Positions 3-15,770 of a stretch of 21,901 bases of DNA are shown here, one piece after another; within the stretch, counting starts at the first letter, position 1, and each line of letters starts with the position of its first letter. The notes under the pieces were generated by a model. It was not told the origin of the DNA, made no database searches, and worked only from the letters and a program-made list of their open reading frames with translations. Origin of the DNA: a virus. The stretch covers positions 1 through 21,901 of the IMG/VR virus record IMGVR_UViG_3300037585_006137; one strand, 5' to 3'. The position numbers were made by a program, and so were the translations under genes.

Positions 3-1556
3 GCTGGAAAAATTGCAGGATTAGCTGCAATAGGTATGTCTGCTTTAGGACTTGGAGCAGAAGCTTTAGGTGAGCAAAGGATAAAGCATCAAAGGGTTGG
101 CCCTGAATCCTTAAGGACTATGAGCTATCAGAGGTGGCTTGAAAGTAATGGCGAATATTACGGTTTAGAAACTCAAGCAGATAGAGGACAGAGTGGATTT
201 GGTGTTTCTGGAATGGCTAGTACACTAAGAAAACTAAAAACTGACTTTGGTTCTCCATATCAAGGTCCAGCTTATAGCAGTTACGTGTTCAAAGAACAGG
301 AGATGTTGAACGAGAGACGCAAATACATCTTAAAGAAATTCGCAGACGTACACTTTAATGATGGTGGACCAGTAAACGATTTATTGAAATCGTCAATGAT
401 GCCTGTAGCTTTTAGTAGAAGTATGTCTAATGTAGCAAAAGCAATGGCTTTGAGCTCTTCCTCAATTAGGAGAGGTAACAGTTTTATAACTGAGGGTGAG
501 TATGTGGATGTTAAACACAGAGGTGGACTCTCTGCTCAAAAGCTGTTCAAAGTAGATTTGAACAATTATCAAATTAGCGCACAAGATGCTGATACAATCC
601 TACTAAAAAGAAAAGGAGTTGTAAATGCTCTGAGTAATTATTTTGGATTCAATCAAGGACAGAACTCTTTTAGTGTACGTTTCAGTGCTATTGACGCACC
701 CGAAACTGCAAAAGGCTCTAAAGAAGGAATGCCTGGAGCTCAAGAAGCTCTCGGTAGACTGAAAGCTCTTATGAACCAAGGGAAGAAAATAGAGTTGTTC
801 TTGAATCCTGGCGACATTACCTACGGAAGACAAGTCGGGTCTCTATTCGTAGATGGCAGAAATGTAGAATTAGATTTAGTAAAAAGTGGGAGTACAAGAT
901 TCTTAAATTTCAAAGGAAAAAATAAACAGATTTTTGATACTAGTGTTTTTAAATCAAATGAAATGTTAGCGCAAGGTAAAGAGTCAGGTATCTGGGGCGA
1001 CCCCTATTACAAACCATTCCAGGAAATAATAAGCAAATCAGGCCAAAATATAACTTTTAACTCTCTAGTGAATCAAAGAAAACTTGCATCAAGTGGAAAT
1101 TTAATGAGTTTATCTGCTCTTATGAAAACTGCTGGAGATATGGGTTTTTACAGCCCAATGATAGCTAAAGAAACTAACGACTTACTATTAAGTGTGAAGA
1201 AAGACGGATTTAGCGCTGACTACAAATCGCCAATTCTTTTTAATGCTCCGAATGCAACACATAGGAAATATATAGAGCATCTTAAAGGTGATATAACTGG
1301 ATTGATGGAAAACCCGACAGGAAATGTTATAAAGAAACATTCAGCAAGTTCAGGTTATAAAAAACTAGACAAAAAGCTTTCTATTGATACGGCTGGTACT
1401 ACTACTTCAGCTTACAGTAAGAGACCACACGAATCTTTTAGTAGATTCGGAGTCGATAAACAAAGAAAGAGGTTAAGGAAAATGAAAATGATAATGGCAC
1501 AAAGAGATGCAATGAGAGGTTTGAATGAATCTCCAATAGGACACCACAGGATGTAA
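3..1556 (+). CDS. 5'-partial phage protein with a complete staphylococcal-nuclease-like (SNase/TNase) domain
   Basis: The frame is open to the left edge, and the first in-window ATG (36) has no well-placed ribosome binding site, so the gene almost certainly starts upstream. Residues are counted from that ATG. The segment around the ATG is Gly/Ala-rich and hydrophobic. Residues about 180-325 match the SNase fold: DADT (184-187), VRFSAIDAPET (R215, D220, E223) and YGR (R265), then an alternating VGSLFVDGRNVELDLVKSG strand-helix and IWG near 319. These correspond to D19/D21, R35, D40, E43 and R87 of staphylococcal nuclease. The R35-E43 spacing is identical (8) and the E43-R87 spacing nearly so (42 versus 44), so Ca-dependent phosphodiesterase activity is expected. 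The C-terminal 60 residues are basic and carry IDTAG (450-454), shared with the next gene. Its place beside terminase and virion genes suggests a virion or packaging-linked nuclease. The target is unknown. Confidence 0.85.
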   Translation, partial: AGKIAGLAAIGMSALGLGAEALGEQRIKHQRVGPESLRTMSYQRWLESNGEYYGLETQADRGQSGFGVSGMASTLRKLKTDFGSPYQGPAYSSYVFKEQEMLNERRKYILKKFADVHFNDGGPVNDLLKSSMMPVAFSRSMSNVAKAMALSSSSIRRGNSFITEGEYVDVKHRGGLSAQKLFKVDLNNYQISAQDADTILLKRKGVVNALSNYFGFNQGQNSFSVRFSAIDAPETAKGSKEGMPGAQEALGRLKALMNQGKKIELFLNPGDITYGRQVGSLFVDGRNVELDLVKSGSTRFLNFKGKNKQIFDTSVFKSNEMLAQGKESGIWGDPYYKPFQEIISKSGQNITFNSLVNQRKLASSGNLMSLSALMKTAGDMGFYSPMIAKETNDLLLSVKKDGFSADYKSPILFNAPNATHRKYIEHLKGDITGLMENPTGNVIKKHSASSGYKKLDKKLSIDTAGTTTSAYSKRPHESFSRFGVDKQRKRLRKMKMIMAQRDAMRGLNESPIGHHRM

Positions 1557-1559
1557 TAA

Positions 1560-2537
1560 ATGATAGGAACACTTATAGGCGGTTCAGTCATGATGGGCGC
1601 ACAACAACTTTCAGGCAGTATGTCAAATTATATGTCTATGGGTGCTGCTTACTCAATGGGCTTCTCGCCTTTGACATCTTTAAGCGCAAACGATATGATA
1701 TATTTCAAGCCACCTGAGGGCGCAGGCAACAAAGTGCACATGGAAGGGTTTGGAAAAACTTTTATCAAAGAGCAGATTAAAGGAAATGTAAACCCTTTAC
1801 CCCAGCAGACAGTGAGTCCTAATAGTATAACTGGATACAGAATACAAGATGGAAAAGCTGTAAGAGCGAATATGAAGGATATGATTCCATCTGGTGCGCC
1901 TGGTGTAGCAATGAGTTTGATTGGCCCTGCAGTAAGTGCTTATTATCTAGTCGGAGGTTACCAAGATAATGGAATTATAGGTTTGACTGATGCTTACTTT
2001 TTAGATATTGCAGCAAGTTCTGCTGCTGTTTCTGCAAATTATAGCAGAGGAGTTGGTCCTACTGACAAAATGGTTACACAGAATCCAGTATTAAAAGGAA
2101 CAGTAGGCGTTAGTAGAACTGTTGGTTTTGGAGGAATGGCGCTTTCTGGTTTTGGAGCTTATAGCGGTTACGAGATTGGTAAAAGTATAGCTGGGATTCC
2201 TGGAGGGTTTGCTGGTGCTTTTGCTGGTGCTCACTTCGGAAAAGGGATAGCTAGACATCCTGGAGTGTTCTTACCTCTTGCTGTAGGAGCTTTTGCTTTG
2301 AAAGAAGCGGGAAGTTTTGCAGTTAGTGCAGTTAGCCATGTAGTGAAAGAAGGTCACAGAAGAAGAAAAATGAGGGGAAGAATTGATACTGCTGGAGACA
2401 CGGCCGCATTCTTTAATAAAAATGCAATAACTATGAGAGGAAGAGCATTTGAATCAATGAGAAAATCACATCTAAATGCTAGAAGCGCTCTAGGTATGGA
2501 AGCTAACATGACTCATATGAATAGAAATTATTTTTAA
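1560..2537 (+). CDS. Gly/Ala-rich protein with glycine zipper; putative virion or membrane-interacting protein
   Basis: Not a family I can name. The 325-residue product is rich in Gly, Ala, Ser and Met. Residues about 110-160 and 185-262 are hydrophobic. Within the second stretch, Gly215, 219, 223 and 227 form a GxxxGxxxGxxxG glycine zipper, a pattern typical of tightly packed or membrane-inserting helices. A basic segment (EGHRRRKMRGR, about 264-274) follows, then IDTAG (275-279) and a basic, Met-rich tail. The same IDTAG sits at the same distance from the C-terminus of the preceding nuclease-domain protein. The gene starts 3 bases after that gene's stop, with AGGA about 9 bases upstream, so the two are co-translated. 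A role as an internal, ejected or tail-tip protein is inference; no signal peptide is evident. Confidence 0.65.
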   Translation: MIGTLIGGSVMMGAQQLSGSMSNYMSMGAAYSMGFSPLTSLSANDMIYFKPPEGAGNKVHMEGFGKTFIKEQIKGNVNPLPQQTVSPNSITGYRIQDGKAVRANMKDMIPSGAPGVAMSLIGPAVSAYYLVGGYQDNGIIGLTDAYFLDIAASSAAVSANYSRGVGPTDKMVTQNPVLKGTVGVSRTVGFGGMALSGFGAYSGYEIGKSIAGIPGGFAGAFAGAHFGKGIARHPGVFLPLAVGAFALKEAGSFAVSAVSHVVKEGHRRRKMRGRIDTAGDTAAFFNKNAITMRGRAFESMRKSHLNARSALGMEANMTHMNRNYF

Positions 2538-2547
2538 AAGGTAAAAA

Positions 2548-4761
2548 ATGGATATCAAGAAAGAGCTTTATATAGAGAATGAGTATGGGTATACACACCA
2601 AGACCCAGATGCAGTTCTATCTAAAGAGGTAATACAAGAATACAAAGAGAAGTACAATATAAATACAAACGTACATAGAACTTGTGTTAACTGTCAAATT
2701 AGACAAATAGAAAAGTACAAGAAGGAAAACGATGACGATCCGAAAGGATTTAAAGTTAAGTGCGATTTCATTCCTAAAGGCTTACCTGCAGGTTCAGCTT
2801 CTAAAGTTAGACAGATAGCTGATGACTCTGACATCCCCTACGATAGAGCAAAGAAGTTGGTTCTCGCTACTGTAGATCCAGTAGCTTGGGCAGAGCTAAT
2901 GTTAGGTTTTGATGATAGCAATGAGAACTGGGCTATTAGAAGCTATCAGAAAGAACAATTAAGATGCTCTGCGTACAGGCTTGCTTGTAGGGAAGGTCGT
3001 CGTAGTGGTAAGACTTTTATTATGGCCCTGAAACTAGTTTACTATGCTTTTAACCTTTTAATAAATAAAGGATTTGATTCATCTGGAAATGAAGTAATTG
3101 AAGGACCTTCTATAATGATAGTTACTCCTTATCAGGCTCAATTGACTAATATTTTTAATGAGATGGAAGACTTAGTTAAAAGAAACAAAGAGCTTGCACA
3201 TCAAGTAACTACAGGAACTGCAGATAGCCTTTACATAAAGACTCCAATGTTTAAAATGGAGTTTAGGAACGGCGGATCTATCAGAGGTTTTGTTTCTGGT
3301 TTGGGTGTTAAAGGTGATGGATCTGGTGGTGGTACTATTCGTGGTCAGTCTGCCGATGTTATATATCTAGATGAAATGGATATGATTCCCGAAGACATTC
3401 TAGATAAAGTTATCACTCCTATCCTATTAACGAAGCCTGGAGTTAGGTTGATCGCTACTTCAACTCCCATTGGAAAGCGCGGCAAATTCTTCCAATGGTG
3501 TTTAGAAAGGGATGACTTTAAGGAAGACTATTACCCTTCTTCAGTTTTACCTCATTGGGATTCCATAAAGAACGAACTCTTAAAAGAGAATACAGAGGAA
3601 GGCTTTCGAGCAGAGTATATGGCTGAATTCATAGAGGGTTCTTTTGGAGTCTTTAAGCCTTCTTGGATCTTTAATGCCAAGAAAGATTACGAGTACCATG
3701 AGACTAAACTACATAACGTAATGCTAAGACTAGGAGTACCTAACGTCAACGAAATGATAAAGTGCATTGGTATTGATTGGAATAAGAATGCAGGTACAGA
3801 ATTCTTTGTTATGGGGTATTGCACTAGTACTGGGCTTTGGATTGCTTTAGATGCTATAAATGTTCCAGCAACTCAGTATTCTGCTAAAAGGTGGATGGAA
3901 GAAGTAATTAGATTAAACTACAAATGGAAACCTGATTACATATATGCTGATGAGGGTTACGGACATACTATACTTGAAGACTTAAAACTGTATTCACATA
4001 GAATAAAAGCCAAGCCTAATAAAACTGAAATGGATATACAGACTGCTAGATTAAACGACAGATTGGTTTCTTTTAACTTTTCTAGAAATTTAGAAATTAG
4101 AGATCCAATCGATGGTAAACTTATAAAAAAATCGGGAAAGCATTTTCTTGTAGAAAACGCTATAAGGATATTCGAAGATGGAAGAGCAGTACTGCCAGCT
4201 TCTGATGACGTTATATCAAAGCAGATGTTAAACTACATAATAACAAAAAGACATGCTGTGAATAACAAACCAGTATACGGAATGGAGAACAGACATATAG
4301 GCGATCATAGATTGGATGCATTAATGTTGGCCTTAGGTGGGTTGACTTTGGAAAGTTCAGTTTACTCTAATTCTGGACAAATGGAGATATCGATACCCGA
4401 ATTCTTCGGTAAGGAAGAATTCAATAATAATAGCTTTTCAACTGCAGGAGATCAGGAAAGAGAAATTAGAGATGGCCTAGGGCGGTATAAAGTGCCGAGG
4501 GCGTATAACATACTAAAAATAATGCGCGGCGATGGCTCAGATAAACAAGACGCAGAAATTAGACAAAAATACTACAATGAAGGTGTTTGGGATGTTGATA
4601 ATAAATATGAAAGAAAAAGAAGAGGGCAAAGCTTTAAAAACAATGAAGAATCAAGTATAATGGAATCAATAAGAAATAAGAATAACAACTTTAGACCTTC
4701 CGAACCTATAAGTAGGGGTCCTCGAAGAAACAGAAGAGGAAAAAGGTCTTGGAGAAAATAG
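2548..4761 (+). CDS. terL: Terminase large subunit (packaging ATPase and nuclease)
   Basis: This is the DNA-packaging motor. It docks on the portal, pumps DNA using ATP and cuts the concatemer. The N-terminal ATPase shows Walker A EGRRSGKT (149-156), Walker B VIYLDE (271-276, D275 and E276) and a coupling motif TSTPIGKRG (304-312). The C-terminal RNase H-like nuclease shows GIDW (D410), YIYADEG (D468) and HIGDHRLDA (D586, D590), the expected acidic triad plus one. At 737 residues it is longer than most (about 450-650). The excess is an N-terminal 110-residue extension with C46, C49 and C72, and a basic Arg-rich C-terminal tail (about 700-737) likely to bind DNA or the portal. The start follows AAGGT by 5 bases. 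No small terminase subunit is recognisable in the window. Confidence 0.96.
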   Translation: MDIKKELYIENEYGYTHQDPDAVLSKEVIQEYKEKYNINTNVHRTCVNCQIRQIEKYKKENDDDPKGFKVKCDFIPKGLPAGSASKVRQIADDSDIPYDRAKKLVLATVDPVAWAELMLGFDDSNENWAIRSYQKEQLRCSAYRLACREGRRSGKTFIMALKLVYYAFNLLINKGFDSSGNEVIEGPSIMIVTPYQAQLTNIFNEMEDLVKRNKELAHQVTTGTADSLYIKTPMFKMEFRNGGSIRGFVSGLGVKGDGSGGGTIRGQSADVIYLDEMDMIPEDILDKVITPILLTKPGVRLIATSTPIGKRGKFFQWCLERDDFKEDYYPSSVLPHWDSIKNELLKENTEEGFRAEYMAEFIEGSFGVFKPSWIFNAKKDYEYHETKLHNVMLRLGVPNVNEMIKCIGIDWNKNAGTEFFVMGYCTSTGLWIALDAINVPATQYSAKRWMEEVIRLNYKWKPDYIYADEGYGHTILEDLKLYSHRIKAKPNKTEMDIQTARLNDRLVSFNFSRNLEIRDPIDGKLIKKSGKHFLVENAIRIFEDGRAVLPASDDVISKQMLNYIITKRHAVNNKPVYGMENRHIGDHRLDALMLALGGLTLESSVYSNSGQMEISIPEFFGKEEFNNNSFSTAGDQEREIRDGLGRYKVPRAYNILKIMRGDGSDKQDAEIRQKYYNEGVWDVDNKYERKRRGQSFKNNEESSIMESIRNKNNNFRPSEPISRGPRRNRRGKRSWRK

Positions 4762-9412: not shown

Positions 9413-11230
9413 ATGAATATAAAATTATTGAGTCAATTAATTGATGTAGTTAGAGTAGAAGACAAGACCATTCTTTCTAAACCGAATATAGTTAAAAAAA
9501 TTAGCTCTAAGTCTATATCTTATACTGAACGACATAGAGGTAGTTGGTTTAAGCCTGAGTACGATTTGGAAGAAATACAAATCGCTCAAGATACAGATAG
9601 TTACCTTTTTAGATCTATTAAGAAGAAAGTAAATAGATTTTTAACTGCTGGTTGGGAAATTGTTGGAAACAATAAAGAGACCGTAGACTATATAAAGAAA
9701 AGAATATCTGAAATAGAATATGTTTCTAGTCAGCCCTGGAATCTGCTACTTACAGATACTGCTGTTGATTTATTTAGATTTTCAAATTGCATGTGGGTTA
9801 AAAGTCGAAATGTAAATTCTTCTTCTGGTAAAATTAGAAAGATTTTTGGAGCTAGAGAAGTAGAACCAGTTGCTGGATATTTTATAATGCCTTTCGAAAC
9901 TTTATCTTTCAAGACTAAAAGAAGTGGGGATATTAAAAAGATTAGACAGAAAATGCCATCAGGCGATTTTCGTGAGTTCTTTCCTCATGAAGTTGTACAT
10001 TTCTACGACAATAAGAAGCCAGGTTTCGCTATGGGTACTCCAGAGATTACACCAGTTTTAGAGGATATAGCTTTACTTAGAAGGATAGAGGAGAACGTTG
10101 AAGATTTATTAGAAAGCAATCTTTACCCGTTGTTTCATTATCAAGTTGGTTCGGATAGTCTTCCTGAAAGGTATTCACCCGAAGGAATTAAAGAGACTGA
10201 CATTGTTAAAAGTAGTATCGACTATATGCCAGCTGGTGGAATTTATGTCTCAGACCATAGGCACAAAATAACTGCTATCGGCTCTGAAGGTAGAGCTTTA
10301 AGAATAGAAGGGTACCTGGATTATTTTAAGAAAAGAGTATTTGCTGGGCTCGGAGTTTCTTCTGTTGATATGGGTGAAGGAGACACAGCTAACAGCTCTA
10401 CGGCTCACAGTTTGTCTAAATCAGCAATATTGGATGTTGAAGCAATGCAAAAAGTTATGAAATCTTTTATAGAGTTTCATATTTTTAATGAACTTCTACT
10501 TGAAGGTGGTTATGATCCTTTAGAGCAAGACGATAGGGTTGAAATTAAATTTGGGGTAGTAGACATGGAAGTAAGGAGTAAGCTTGAAAATCAAACTATA
10601 CAGCTATTCTTAAATAAGCTTATAACAGAGACTGAAGCTAGAAAGAGATTAGGCCTACCTCCTGAAGTTGATATAGAGGAAACACATTACAAGTTATATG
10701 AAGAGCCTTTAGCTTTACTTAAAATGAGCGGCCCTAATACTGCCGCTACTGAAGCTCTAGTTGAGTCCGAAAGATCTTCTATAACTAGAGAAGGCGCCGA
10801 GAAAGAAAAATCTTCTAGTGTTGAGAGAGAATCTAGAGGAAGGAAAGGAGAAATGGCCAAACAGGGAGCTAGCAATTTAAGCACAAGCATATCTAAACCT
10901 GAAAATCAGCATGGGGTTAGAACCTCACCTAAGTTTACAAGCGATTATGTGGTTTTACGTTTGAATGCTATTCAAAATATATTTGACGATATACTTGACA
11001 AAACCAAGGAAAACTATTTAGTATATAGTAGTGTTAAAGAAAAATATATAAATATATTAGACAATTTGCTATTAGATATAAATAATTTTGAAAAAAACTT
11101 GAAAAATAACGAGAATGTTATAAATAATAATGATAGAATAGATTCTGTATTTTCTCCAGGTTTGGAAGAAATATTAGAATTATACGAATTTAAAACTTTA
11201 AGTTTAAAAAAGGAATTTACAAATGATTAA
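9413..11230 (+). CDS. Portal protein
   Basis: Predicted to be the dodecameric ring at the capsid vertex through which DNA enters and leaves. The 605-residue length, position before the protease gene, and several portal-like stretches support this. These are an N-terminal helical region with a wing-like SIKKKVNRFLTAGWEIVG (64-81), MPFETLSFKTKRSGDIKKIR followed by FFPHEVVHFYDN, and then the long-helix stem/crown pattern GTPEITPVLEDIALLRRIEENVEDLL. The clip/loop segment FAGLGVSSVDMGEGDTANSS and ETEARKRLGLPPE are also common in phage portals. Residues about 440-500 are charged and low-complexity (Glu/Ser/Arg), and the C-terminal 90 residues form Asn-rich helices. The start has a weak AGGG site. 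The stop overlaps the protease start by 8 bases. Confidence 0.9.
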   Translation: MNIKLLSQLIDVVRVEDKTILSKPNIVKKISSKSISYTERHRGSWFKPEYDLEEIQIAQDTDSYLFRSIKKKVNRFLTAGWEIVGNNKETVDYIKKRISEIEYVSSQPWNLLLTDTAVDLFRFSNCMWVKSRNVNSSSGKIRKIFGAREVEPVAGYFIMPFETLSFKTKRSGDIKKIRQKMPSGDFREFFPHEVVHFYDNKKPGFAMGTPEITPVLEDIALLRRIEENVEDLLESNLYPLFHYQVGSDSLPERYSPEGIKETDIVKSSIDYMPAGGIYVSDHRHKITAIGSEGRALRIEGYLDYFKKRVFAGLGVSSVDMGEGDTANSSTAHSLSKSAILDVEAMQKVMKSFIEFHIFNELLLEGGYDPLEQDDRVEIKFGVVDMEVRSKLENQTIQLFLNKLITETEARKRLGLPPEVDIEETHYKLYEEPLALLKMSGPNTAATEALVESERSSITREGAEKEKSSSVERESRGRKGEMAKQGASNLSTSISKPENQHGVRTSPKFTSDYVVLRLNAIQNIFDDILDKTKENYLVYSSVKEKYINILDNLLLDINNFEKNLKNNENVINNNDRIDSVFSPGLEEILELYEFKTLSLKKEFTND

Positions 11231-14474: not shown

Positions 14475-15770
14475 ATGGAATTTAAATTAATAGATGGAAG
14501 TGCTTTGCAACTTCCTAGTAATGAGAAAGCTGCCGCAAGATATCTAGCTGATATGATTGCAAATAATGGTCAGCTTCCAGATTCAGAAGAAAGAGTTAAA
14601 TGGTCGACTTTTGTTGAAACCATTTCTCCAAAGAACACAGACTTGGTAAGAAGTTCAGAGATTACTCCTCTTCTTCAAAAGTCTATGGAAATCCTTATTC
14701 GTGAACCAGTAGAACCTAATCTTGTAATTACAGGATTGTTCAATAGAGTTCAAGCTGAAGGTCTATCTACACAAGTACTTGCTGGTGCAATTGGTGCTGT
14801 ATATGCTCAAGATGTTCAAGAGCATGGTACTTATCCAGAAGTAAACTTCCAAATCGGTGGTGCTGTTTCTACAGCTTACATCGGAAAAGCAGGTATCGCT
14901 GCTTCATTTACTGATGAAGCGCTTCGTTACTCTACTTACGATATCATGGCTATGAATCTTAAGCTTATGGGCAATGCTCTTGCTCGTCACAAAGAACAAA
15001 AAGCTGCTGCTTTCTTGAAGTCTTTAGGTACATCACTTTTTGATAATGATAAGCCTGCTGAATCTCTTTTTGGTGTTCTAAGTGGACGTAATGAAGCATT
15101 AAGTCAAAATGGTGCTATGACTATGGATGATCTTATGAAAGGTATGGCTCACATGTCAGAAGAAGGATTTGCTCCAGATGTACTTTTGATGCATCCTCTC
15201 TTTTACTATAACTTTGTAAGAGATCCAGTTTTGCGTCAAATGATGCTTGCTCATGGTGGTGGACAGTTCTTTAATCCATACACAGGAAATCCTGGCCCTC
15301 AGAATCCTTGGAATCAAGGCGCAATGGGAGCTATGGGTCCTTCCAATGGTCGTTCAATTGTTCCTGGTGGAAATATCGCTGGTGAGACAGCTACATCTTT
15401 AGCTAATCGTTCTCAACAAGCTACTTCTGCTCCTAACATTCCTTCTTACTTCCCATTTGGATTTAGAGTTGTTGTTTCTCCTCTTTGTCCTTTTGATCCA
15501 GAATCAATGAAAGGTGACATTTTCCTTCTTTCTTCAGGTAATGTTGGTTTTTATCTTGTTGATGAAGATCCTACAACTGTAGAATGGAGAGATGAAAATA
15601 CTGAAGTTGTTAAAGTTAAGATTCGTGAACGTTACGGCTTTGCTGTTGCTCATGAAGGTCAAGGTGTTGGTGTATTGAAAAATGTACGCGCTAAGCAAAA
15701 CTTCTGGGATGGAACAGTAAATGCTGATGCTAGTTTAGGTGTACATGTTCCTGATGCTACAATTTCTTAA
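14475..15770 (+). CDS. Major capsid protein, HK97-like fold
   Basis: Predicted to form the icosahedral shell. The 431-residue product has an N-terminal helical arm (about 1-75). The stretch NLVITGLFNRVQAEGLSTQV introduces the folded core. FTDEALRYSTYDIMAMNLKLMGNALARHKEQKAAAFL looks like the spine helix. PDVLLMHPLFYYNFVRDPVLRQM and FPFGFRVVVSPLCPF fit the P-domain/A-domain pattern. The end has DPTTVEWRDENTEVVKVKIRERYGF, as in many HK97-fold capsids. A Gly/Asn/Pro-rich loop of roughly 45 residues near 260-310 may be surface-exposed. The ribosome binding site is strong (AAAGGAG). By my count 10 of its 17 arginines use CGT/CGC, unlike neighbouring genes that use AGA, a sign of selection for high expression. 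A strong terminator follows. Confidence 0.92.
   Translation: MEFKLIDGSALQLPSNEKAAARYLADMIANNGQLPDSEERVKWSTFVETISPKNTDLVRSSEITPLLQKSMEILIREPVEPNLVITGLFNRVQAEGLSTQVLAGAIGAVYAQDVQEHGTYPEVNFQIGGAVSTAYIGKAGIAASFTDEALRYSTYDIMAMNLKLMGNALARHKEQKAAAFLKSLGTSLFDNDKPAESLFGVLSGRNEALSQNGAMTMDDLMKGMAHMSEEGFAPDVLLMHPLFYYNFVRDPVLRQMMLAHGGGQFFNPYTGNPGPQNPWNQGAMGAMGPSNGRSIVPGGNIAGETATSLANRSQQATSAPNIPSYFPFGFRVVVSPLCPFDPESMKGDIFLLSSGNVGFYLVDEDPTTVEWRDENTEVVKVKIRERYGFAVAHEGQGVGVLKNVRAKQNFWDGTVNADASLGVHVPDATIS

Follow-up and report, generated by a model that had tools for sequence, protein, structure and literature searches.

Why does a phage encode a nuclease domain of the staphylococcal type (SNase) inside a long protein next to its terminase and virion genes, and what could such a protein do during infection? 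The window, that is the whole stretch of DNA analysed here, is a linear viral record of 21,901 bases, and its first frame raises this question (Table 1). The original prediction assigned a catalytically complete SNase domain to this protein and connected it with the virion or with DNA packaging.

Table 1. Positions of genes, protein segments and key codons in the window.
Feature	Position	Strand	Evidence or remark
EXO-SNase protein, C-terminal 517 residues	3..1556	+	open frame; 5' end (exonuclease half in relatives) beyond contig edge
Gly/Ala-rich hydrophobic segment	9..77	+	protein's hydrophobicity maximum
TDFGSPYQGP motif, between hydrophobic segment and SNase domain	240..269	+	near-invariant columns
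SNase domain	540..1007	+	PF00565 match at 675-998; AF2; Foldseek
SNase key codons	D195 585, D197 591, R226 678, D231 693, E234 702, R276 828	+	open-frame numbering
Basic tail ending SPIGHHRM, clade-conserved	1293..1553	+	conservation and composition
g2, Gly-rich protein, no assigned function	1560..2537	+	sits between EXO-SNase and terL
Terminase large subunit (terL)	2548..4761	+	PF03237 38.9 bits; phrog_2 1.2e-29
Portal protein	9413..11230	+	phrog_9232 5.4e-51
Major capsid protein	14475..15770	+	PF25209 64.5 bits

The SNase domain and its surroundings

The SNase domain encoded in 3-1556 is genuine, with signals far above chance. The PF00565 profile, proposed earlier as a check, matches the protein with 43 bits against a cut-off of 21 (E 7.1e-11), and a phmmer comparison with staphylococcal nuclease from the PDB reaches 7.8e-6. 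An AlphaFold2 model of the domain, calculated from an alignment with 35 relatives, has pLDDT values mostly around 90 and forms a barrel that Foldseek matches to staphylococcal nuclease entries (1kab, E 5.3e-9, target TM 0.83), in line with the predicted fold. The protein contains one such domain, and the equivalents of R35, E43 and R87 and of the metal ligands D21 and D40 are all present and are invariant in the relatives. The residues predicted as D184, D186, R215, D220, E223 and R265 were all found; they had been counted from the ATG at position 36, and addition of 11 gives the open-frame numbering from base 3 that is used in Table 1. Also the predicted spacings hold, since R to E is 8 residues, identical to R35-E43 of SNase, and E to R is 42 compared to 44, a difference of 2. 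The domain is somewhat bigger than the predicted 573-1010 and spans approximately 540-1007. Compared to staphylococcal nuclease and the PF00565 family (PDB 1SNC, 1STN), the phage domain shares the barrel fold, all six catalytic and metal positions and the R-E spacing. It differs by its embedding in a 1,000-aa protein, by an Ala or Ser at the T41 position and by a longer D21-to-R35 segment (29 versus 14). Staphylococcal nuclease requires more calcium than is usually present in the bacterial cytoplasm, and by analogy this need could hold the SNase domain quiet inside the producing cell. A minus-strand frame of 76 aa at 603-833 is unsupported as a gene.

The segments around the domain were described correctly as well. 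Composition counts show that both the Gly/Ala-rich stretch ahead of it and the basic tail behind it are real, with 43% G+A in residues 1-30 and 19 K+R versus 7 D+E in residues 431-517. The Gly/Ala-rich segment is the hydrophobicity maximum in 69 of 76 relatives and reaches a KD value of 1.6 in 23 of them; this comparison of hydrophobicity revealed no secure membrane span or secretion signal. TDFGSPYQGP is the single copy kept in the window of a motif of 25-30 residues, NxIEGLxHxGMAxxxRxxxTxFGSGW, that is repeated two to three times around the SNase domain in distant homologues (L208, L211 and L213-L219). DFGSPY as a common head-protease or targeting signal was rejected, because it is absent from the other proteins of these loci, and a query based on it gave zero matches in cultured phages.

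Downstream of the gene, Pfam and PHROG matches identify terL, portal and capsid, confirming the predicted location in a head and packaging block. A protease-like gene downstream of terL has a weak match to phrog_18299, and the last gene of the window is tail-sheath-like and homologous to annotated sheath genes of the phages ME3 and MTATph1. According to terminase and portal, the nearest cultured phages are Moorella phage MTATph1, Acinetobacter phage ME3 and Bacillus phage KLEB27-3 (approximately 22-36% protein identity); the annotation of ME3 refers to Bacillus phage 0305phi8-36.

The exonuclease half of full-length relatives

Judged from the frame that is open at base 3 and from the greater length of its relatives, the window protein is a fragment, and some 600-700 N-terminal residues would lie beyond the contig. 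Full-length relatives have approximately 940-1,600 aa, distant ones up to 1,785, and are arranged as a DEDDh 3'-5' exonuclease, a helical middle part, the Gly/Ala-rich hydrophobic segment, the SNase domain and the basic tail. In their N-terminal part the motifs DxET, NxxFE and Hx4D follow each other in this order, and 31/31 sequences have the full set of acidic and His residues. This is the order of ExoI, ExoII and ExoIII in DEDDh exonucleases of the DnaQ epsilon type (phrog_192), while the ExoII residue, Asp in most DEDDh exonucleases, is Glu in almost all phage members, and long insertions separate the motifs. When the region was aligned with 18 DnaQ-type sequences by hhalign, ExoI and ExoII aligned with 92-95% probability, compared to at most 3.7% in 20 column-shuffled controls. 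Matches to phrog_192 (DNA polymerase exonuclease subunit) were found in 11 of 26 members, and distant members bridge the families with values of 4e-20 (L212) and 2e-13 (L215); L212 is also above the cut-off for PF13482. Pfam does not recognise the exonuclease half in the clade of the window, probably because of the long insertions. The model of L009 is confident over the exonuclease half, which in BFVD retrieves by Foldseek a full-length phage protein (6e-44) and ME3_11 (5e-7). Since known exonucleases are matched weakly and the top rows from the PDB are all SNase, the evidence for the RNase H-like fold of such enzymes is not conclusive by itself. Taken together, motifs, profile-profile alignment and bridging members support a divergent exonuclease of the DEDDh (DnaQ) type in the N-terminal half. 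Because this part of the window protein is located beyond the contig edge, we infer it for the window virus from its relatives. Thus, the complete SNase domain of the original prediction stands, but a DEDDh half was missed; the protein is probably a dual nuclease, termed EXO-SNase here, with its C-terminal half in the window.

Two members carry an additional insert in the exonuclease part. In L051:3340-7188, an intein-like insert (CLGADTLVEL...GLVVHN) starts at a Cys directly after the ExoII Glu and ends with HN before Ser, and in L174:2674-6909 an insert begins at the same residue. Inteins typically end with HN before Ser and prefer conserved active-site motifs.

Retention of EXO-SNase and carriers in cultured phages

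Retention was assessed in a set of 51 loci that was baited with the terminase and hence not selected for SNase. Six loci end before the gene, and in 45/45 informative loci an EXO-SNase homologue is located upstream of terL. Further homologues, distant ones among them, came from a scan that used the family alignment and raised the total to 78 distinct proteins (47 clusters at 50% identity). As the patterns of this second scan contain a portion of the SNase motif, the conservation claims lean mainly on the first set. Each SNase position is covered by 77 or 78 proteins and is the same in all of them; the exonuclease positions, covered by 58-66 proteins each, are likewise invariant, with the exception of one Glu-to-Asp at ExoII. 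Within the clade of the window the gene order is constant as far as contigs reach, with EXO-SNase, g2 and terL followed by portal, protease and capsid; g2 was undetected in some distant members. EXO-SNase belongs to the core genes of the lineage. The original prediction had tied the gene to the head and packaging block, but had missed that it is not accessory cargo. The gene is kept in all informative loci, which led us to reject a stand-alone nuclease acquired by chance, and the invariant catalytic sites led us to reject a degenerate nuclease.

Two further observations concern neighbouring genes. A gene of approximately 260 codons precedes EXO-SNase directly in nearly all loci (L009:1194-2048, L041:4361-5152 and equivalents). 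It has conserved cysteines (CxGxxxCPFxxxCPIP) and zero Pfam or PHROG family matches, and is possibly the terminase small subunit. In L051, L052, L192 and L204 the terL frames exceed the usual length by about 1,000 bases and possibly hold inteins, as reported for the terminase of prophage BtI1 (PMC2147016).

The dual nuclease itself is confined to uncultured members in our searches. The window protein alone as query found nothing in viral contigs, and in cultured phages it matched stand-alone-type SNases only (22 Bacillus SPbeta-type records and one Enterococcus phage). Likewise, tblastn with full-length members against 50,697 phage records returned zero dual-nuclease homologues. A scan of genome contigs gave no clue to the host, because the best 78 loci listed match the SNase part of the query alone.

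In the cultured sister phages the two nucleases have other carriers. ME3 has them on separate proteins. ME3_11 (529 aa), encoded two genes upstream of terL, is a homologue of the exonuclease part with a Gly/Ala-rich segment near the C-terminus, but the SNase domain is absent. The baseplate hub ME3_37 contains a SNase domain (53 bits) beside an M23 peptidase. A 2,225-aa protein of MTATph1 at the hub place has a SNase region above the cut-off in a six-frame search, and a baseplate protein of KLEB27-3 matches the SNase-type phrog_452 (2e-8). These two hub copies may be inactive, because the D40 metal ligand is replaced by Q in KLEB27-3 (L065:25336-32316) and by N in MTATph1 (L066:28381-35058). 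That the BtI1 hub carries a SNase domain was already described in 2007, in a comparison of 0305phi8-36 with BtI1 whose authors saw no obvious use for it (PMC2147016). The hub proteins of BtI1 and ME3, relatives of gp147 of 0305phi8-36, thus share with EXO-SNase a SNase domain in a virion-module protein, but they belong to the tail hub and are devoid of the exonuclease. Among nine large uncultured relatives, eight have a hub homologue without match to the SNase region of the ME3 hub, and one SNase each. The SNase function thus appears to be present once per virus, on differing carriers. Shortly before the hub-place protein, MTATph1 encodes another nuclease candidate in a virion-module protein, the unannotated 1,309-aa tail-region protein CDS0027 (L066:21013-24942), with an RNase_T exonuclease match of 24.2 bits versus a cut-off of 24.

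Some distant members of the family are extended further. Protein-kinase-like regions, which match general kinase profiles, follow the SNase domain in L212:8138-11728, L215:4304-8647 and L214:1422-5288, and a HExxH metallopeptidase-like stretch follows it in L217:9572-11665. Kinase-like regions were found in none of the proteins of the window's clade.

Possible roles of the dual nuclease

A complete SNase domain in the head and packaging block makes the proposed link to virion or packaging likely, while leaving both branches to be weighed. We consider a nuclease of the polyvalent type that forms part of the virion and enters the cell on infection to be the best reading of the sequences, and hold it with moderate confidence. 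EXO-SNase would be produced late together with the head proteins, packaged in or on the particle and delivered with the genome. In the infected cell, sequence-independent cutting of nucleic acid by the SNase domain would expose 3' ends for degradation by the exonuclease domain, so that host or competitor DNA/RNA would be destroyed and nucleotides supplied. Here we infer presence in the virion, delivery, target and the activity of both enzymes. The polyvalent proteins of phages are encoded near virion genes (PMC5512222) and are, similar to EXO-SNase, very large and multidomain, although SNase is not named among them in that study. At least two effector-type domains per polypeptide, as in polyvalent proteins, are present in the relatives (exonuclease and SNase, in some also a kinase-like region), and the gene lies among late virion genes. 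The constant place of EXO-SNase in the head module speaks for delivery, and the kinase-like and HExxH regions, themes of injected polyvalent proteins, may do so by analogy. The SNase on the hub of sister phages, together with the polyvalent-type architectures of distant relatives, lends further support to a virion-carried protein. Against delivery, the universal retention beside terL also fits a role in packaging. Further points against it are the lack of a secure membrane span or secretion signal, the weak Foldseek matches of the exonuclease half to PDB-type exonucleases, the position of this half beyond the window, and the Glu at ExoII.

A packaging or DNA-processing nuclease would work late with the terminase, resolving branches or trimming ends of replicated DNA ahead of packaging or in its course, without need for host entry. 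In agreement with such a role, the gene is always the second one upstream of terL in the clade and is kept in all 45 informative loci, and ME3 has a homologue with the exonuclease alone at this place. There is also a precedent in a T4-type head nuclease, which has non-specific DNase activity and is needed for packaging (PMC7824862). However, SNase enzymes are sequence-non-specific and would be a threat to the phage genome, the SNase of the sister phages is part of the tail hub, remote from packaging, and the kinase-like and HExxH extensions of distant members are ill-suited to such a task. We regard a packaging role as the main rival, though rather unlikely, and it is the hub argument that tips the balance towards delivery, without settling the question. 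Even less probable is a nuclease that is not virion-borne but acts late inside the cell, where it would gain nucleotides from what is left of the host DNA or from competing elements. In its favour, YokF of SPbeta and other stand-alone phage SNases are annotated as chromosome-degrading, but genes of nucleotide metabolism are not adjacent here and a fusion into a 1,000-aa head-linked protein would be unnecessary. A structural protein that uses nuclease domains as DNA-binding modules in the head, catalysis being dispensable, would suit the constant neighbourhood of head genes and the large helical regions without enzyme match, yet it is very improbable given catalytic positions of both domains that are invariant over 78 divergent proteins.

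Both domains have been described before, and the BtI1 hub is an earlier example of SNase in a phage virion protein. In the literature searched we found no account of a gene next to terL that fuses an exonuclease with SNase; UniProt has a full-length member that has gone unremarked under the name 'SNase-like'. Here SNase is joined with an exonuclease in one protein whose gene belongs to the core of a large lineage of uncultured phages, and the two active sites are fully conserved. If it is linked to packaging, EXO-SNase would be a new component of the DNA-packaging apparatus. If virion-borne, it would constitute a pre-loaded dual nuclease that is delivered at infection. Going further, we tentatively propose that throughout this lineage of large tailed phages the particle obligatorily carries a paired endo- and exonuclease and ejects it into the host, with the SNase part moving in evolution between tail hub and head-side protein. 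If this is true, the particle, and not a newly made phage protein, would start the destruction of the host genome. The findings suggest that large tailed phages of a little-known group carry a built-in DNA shredder in their particle.
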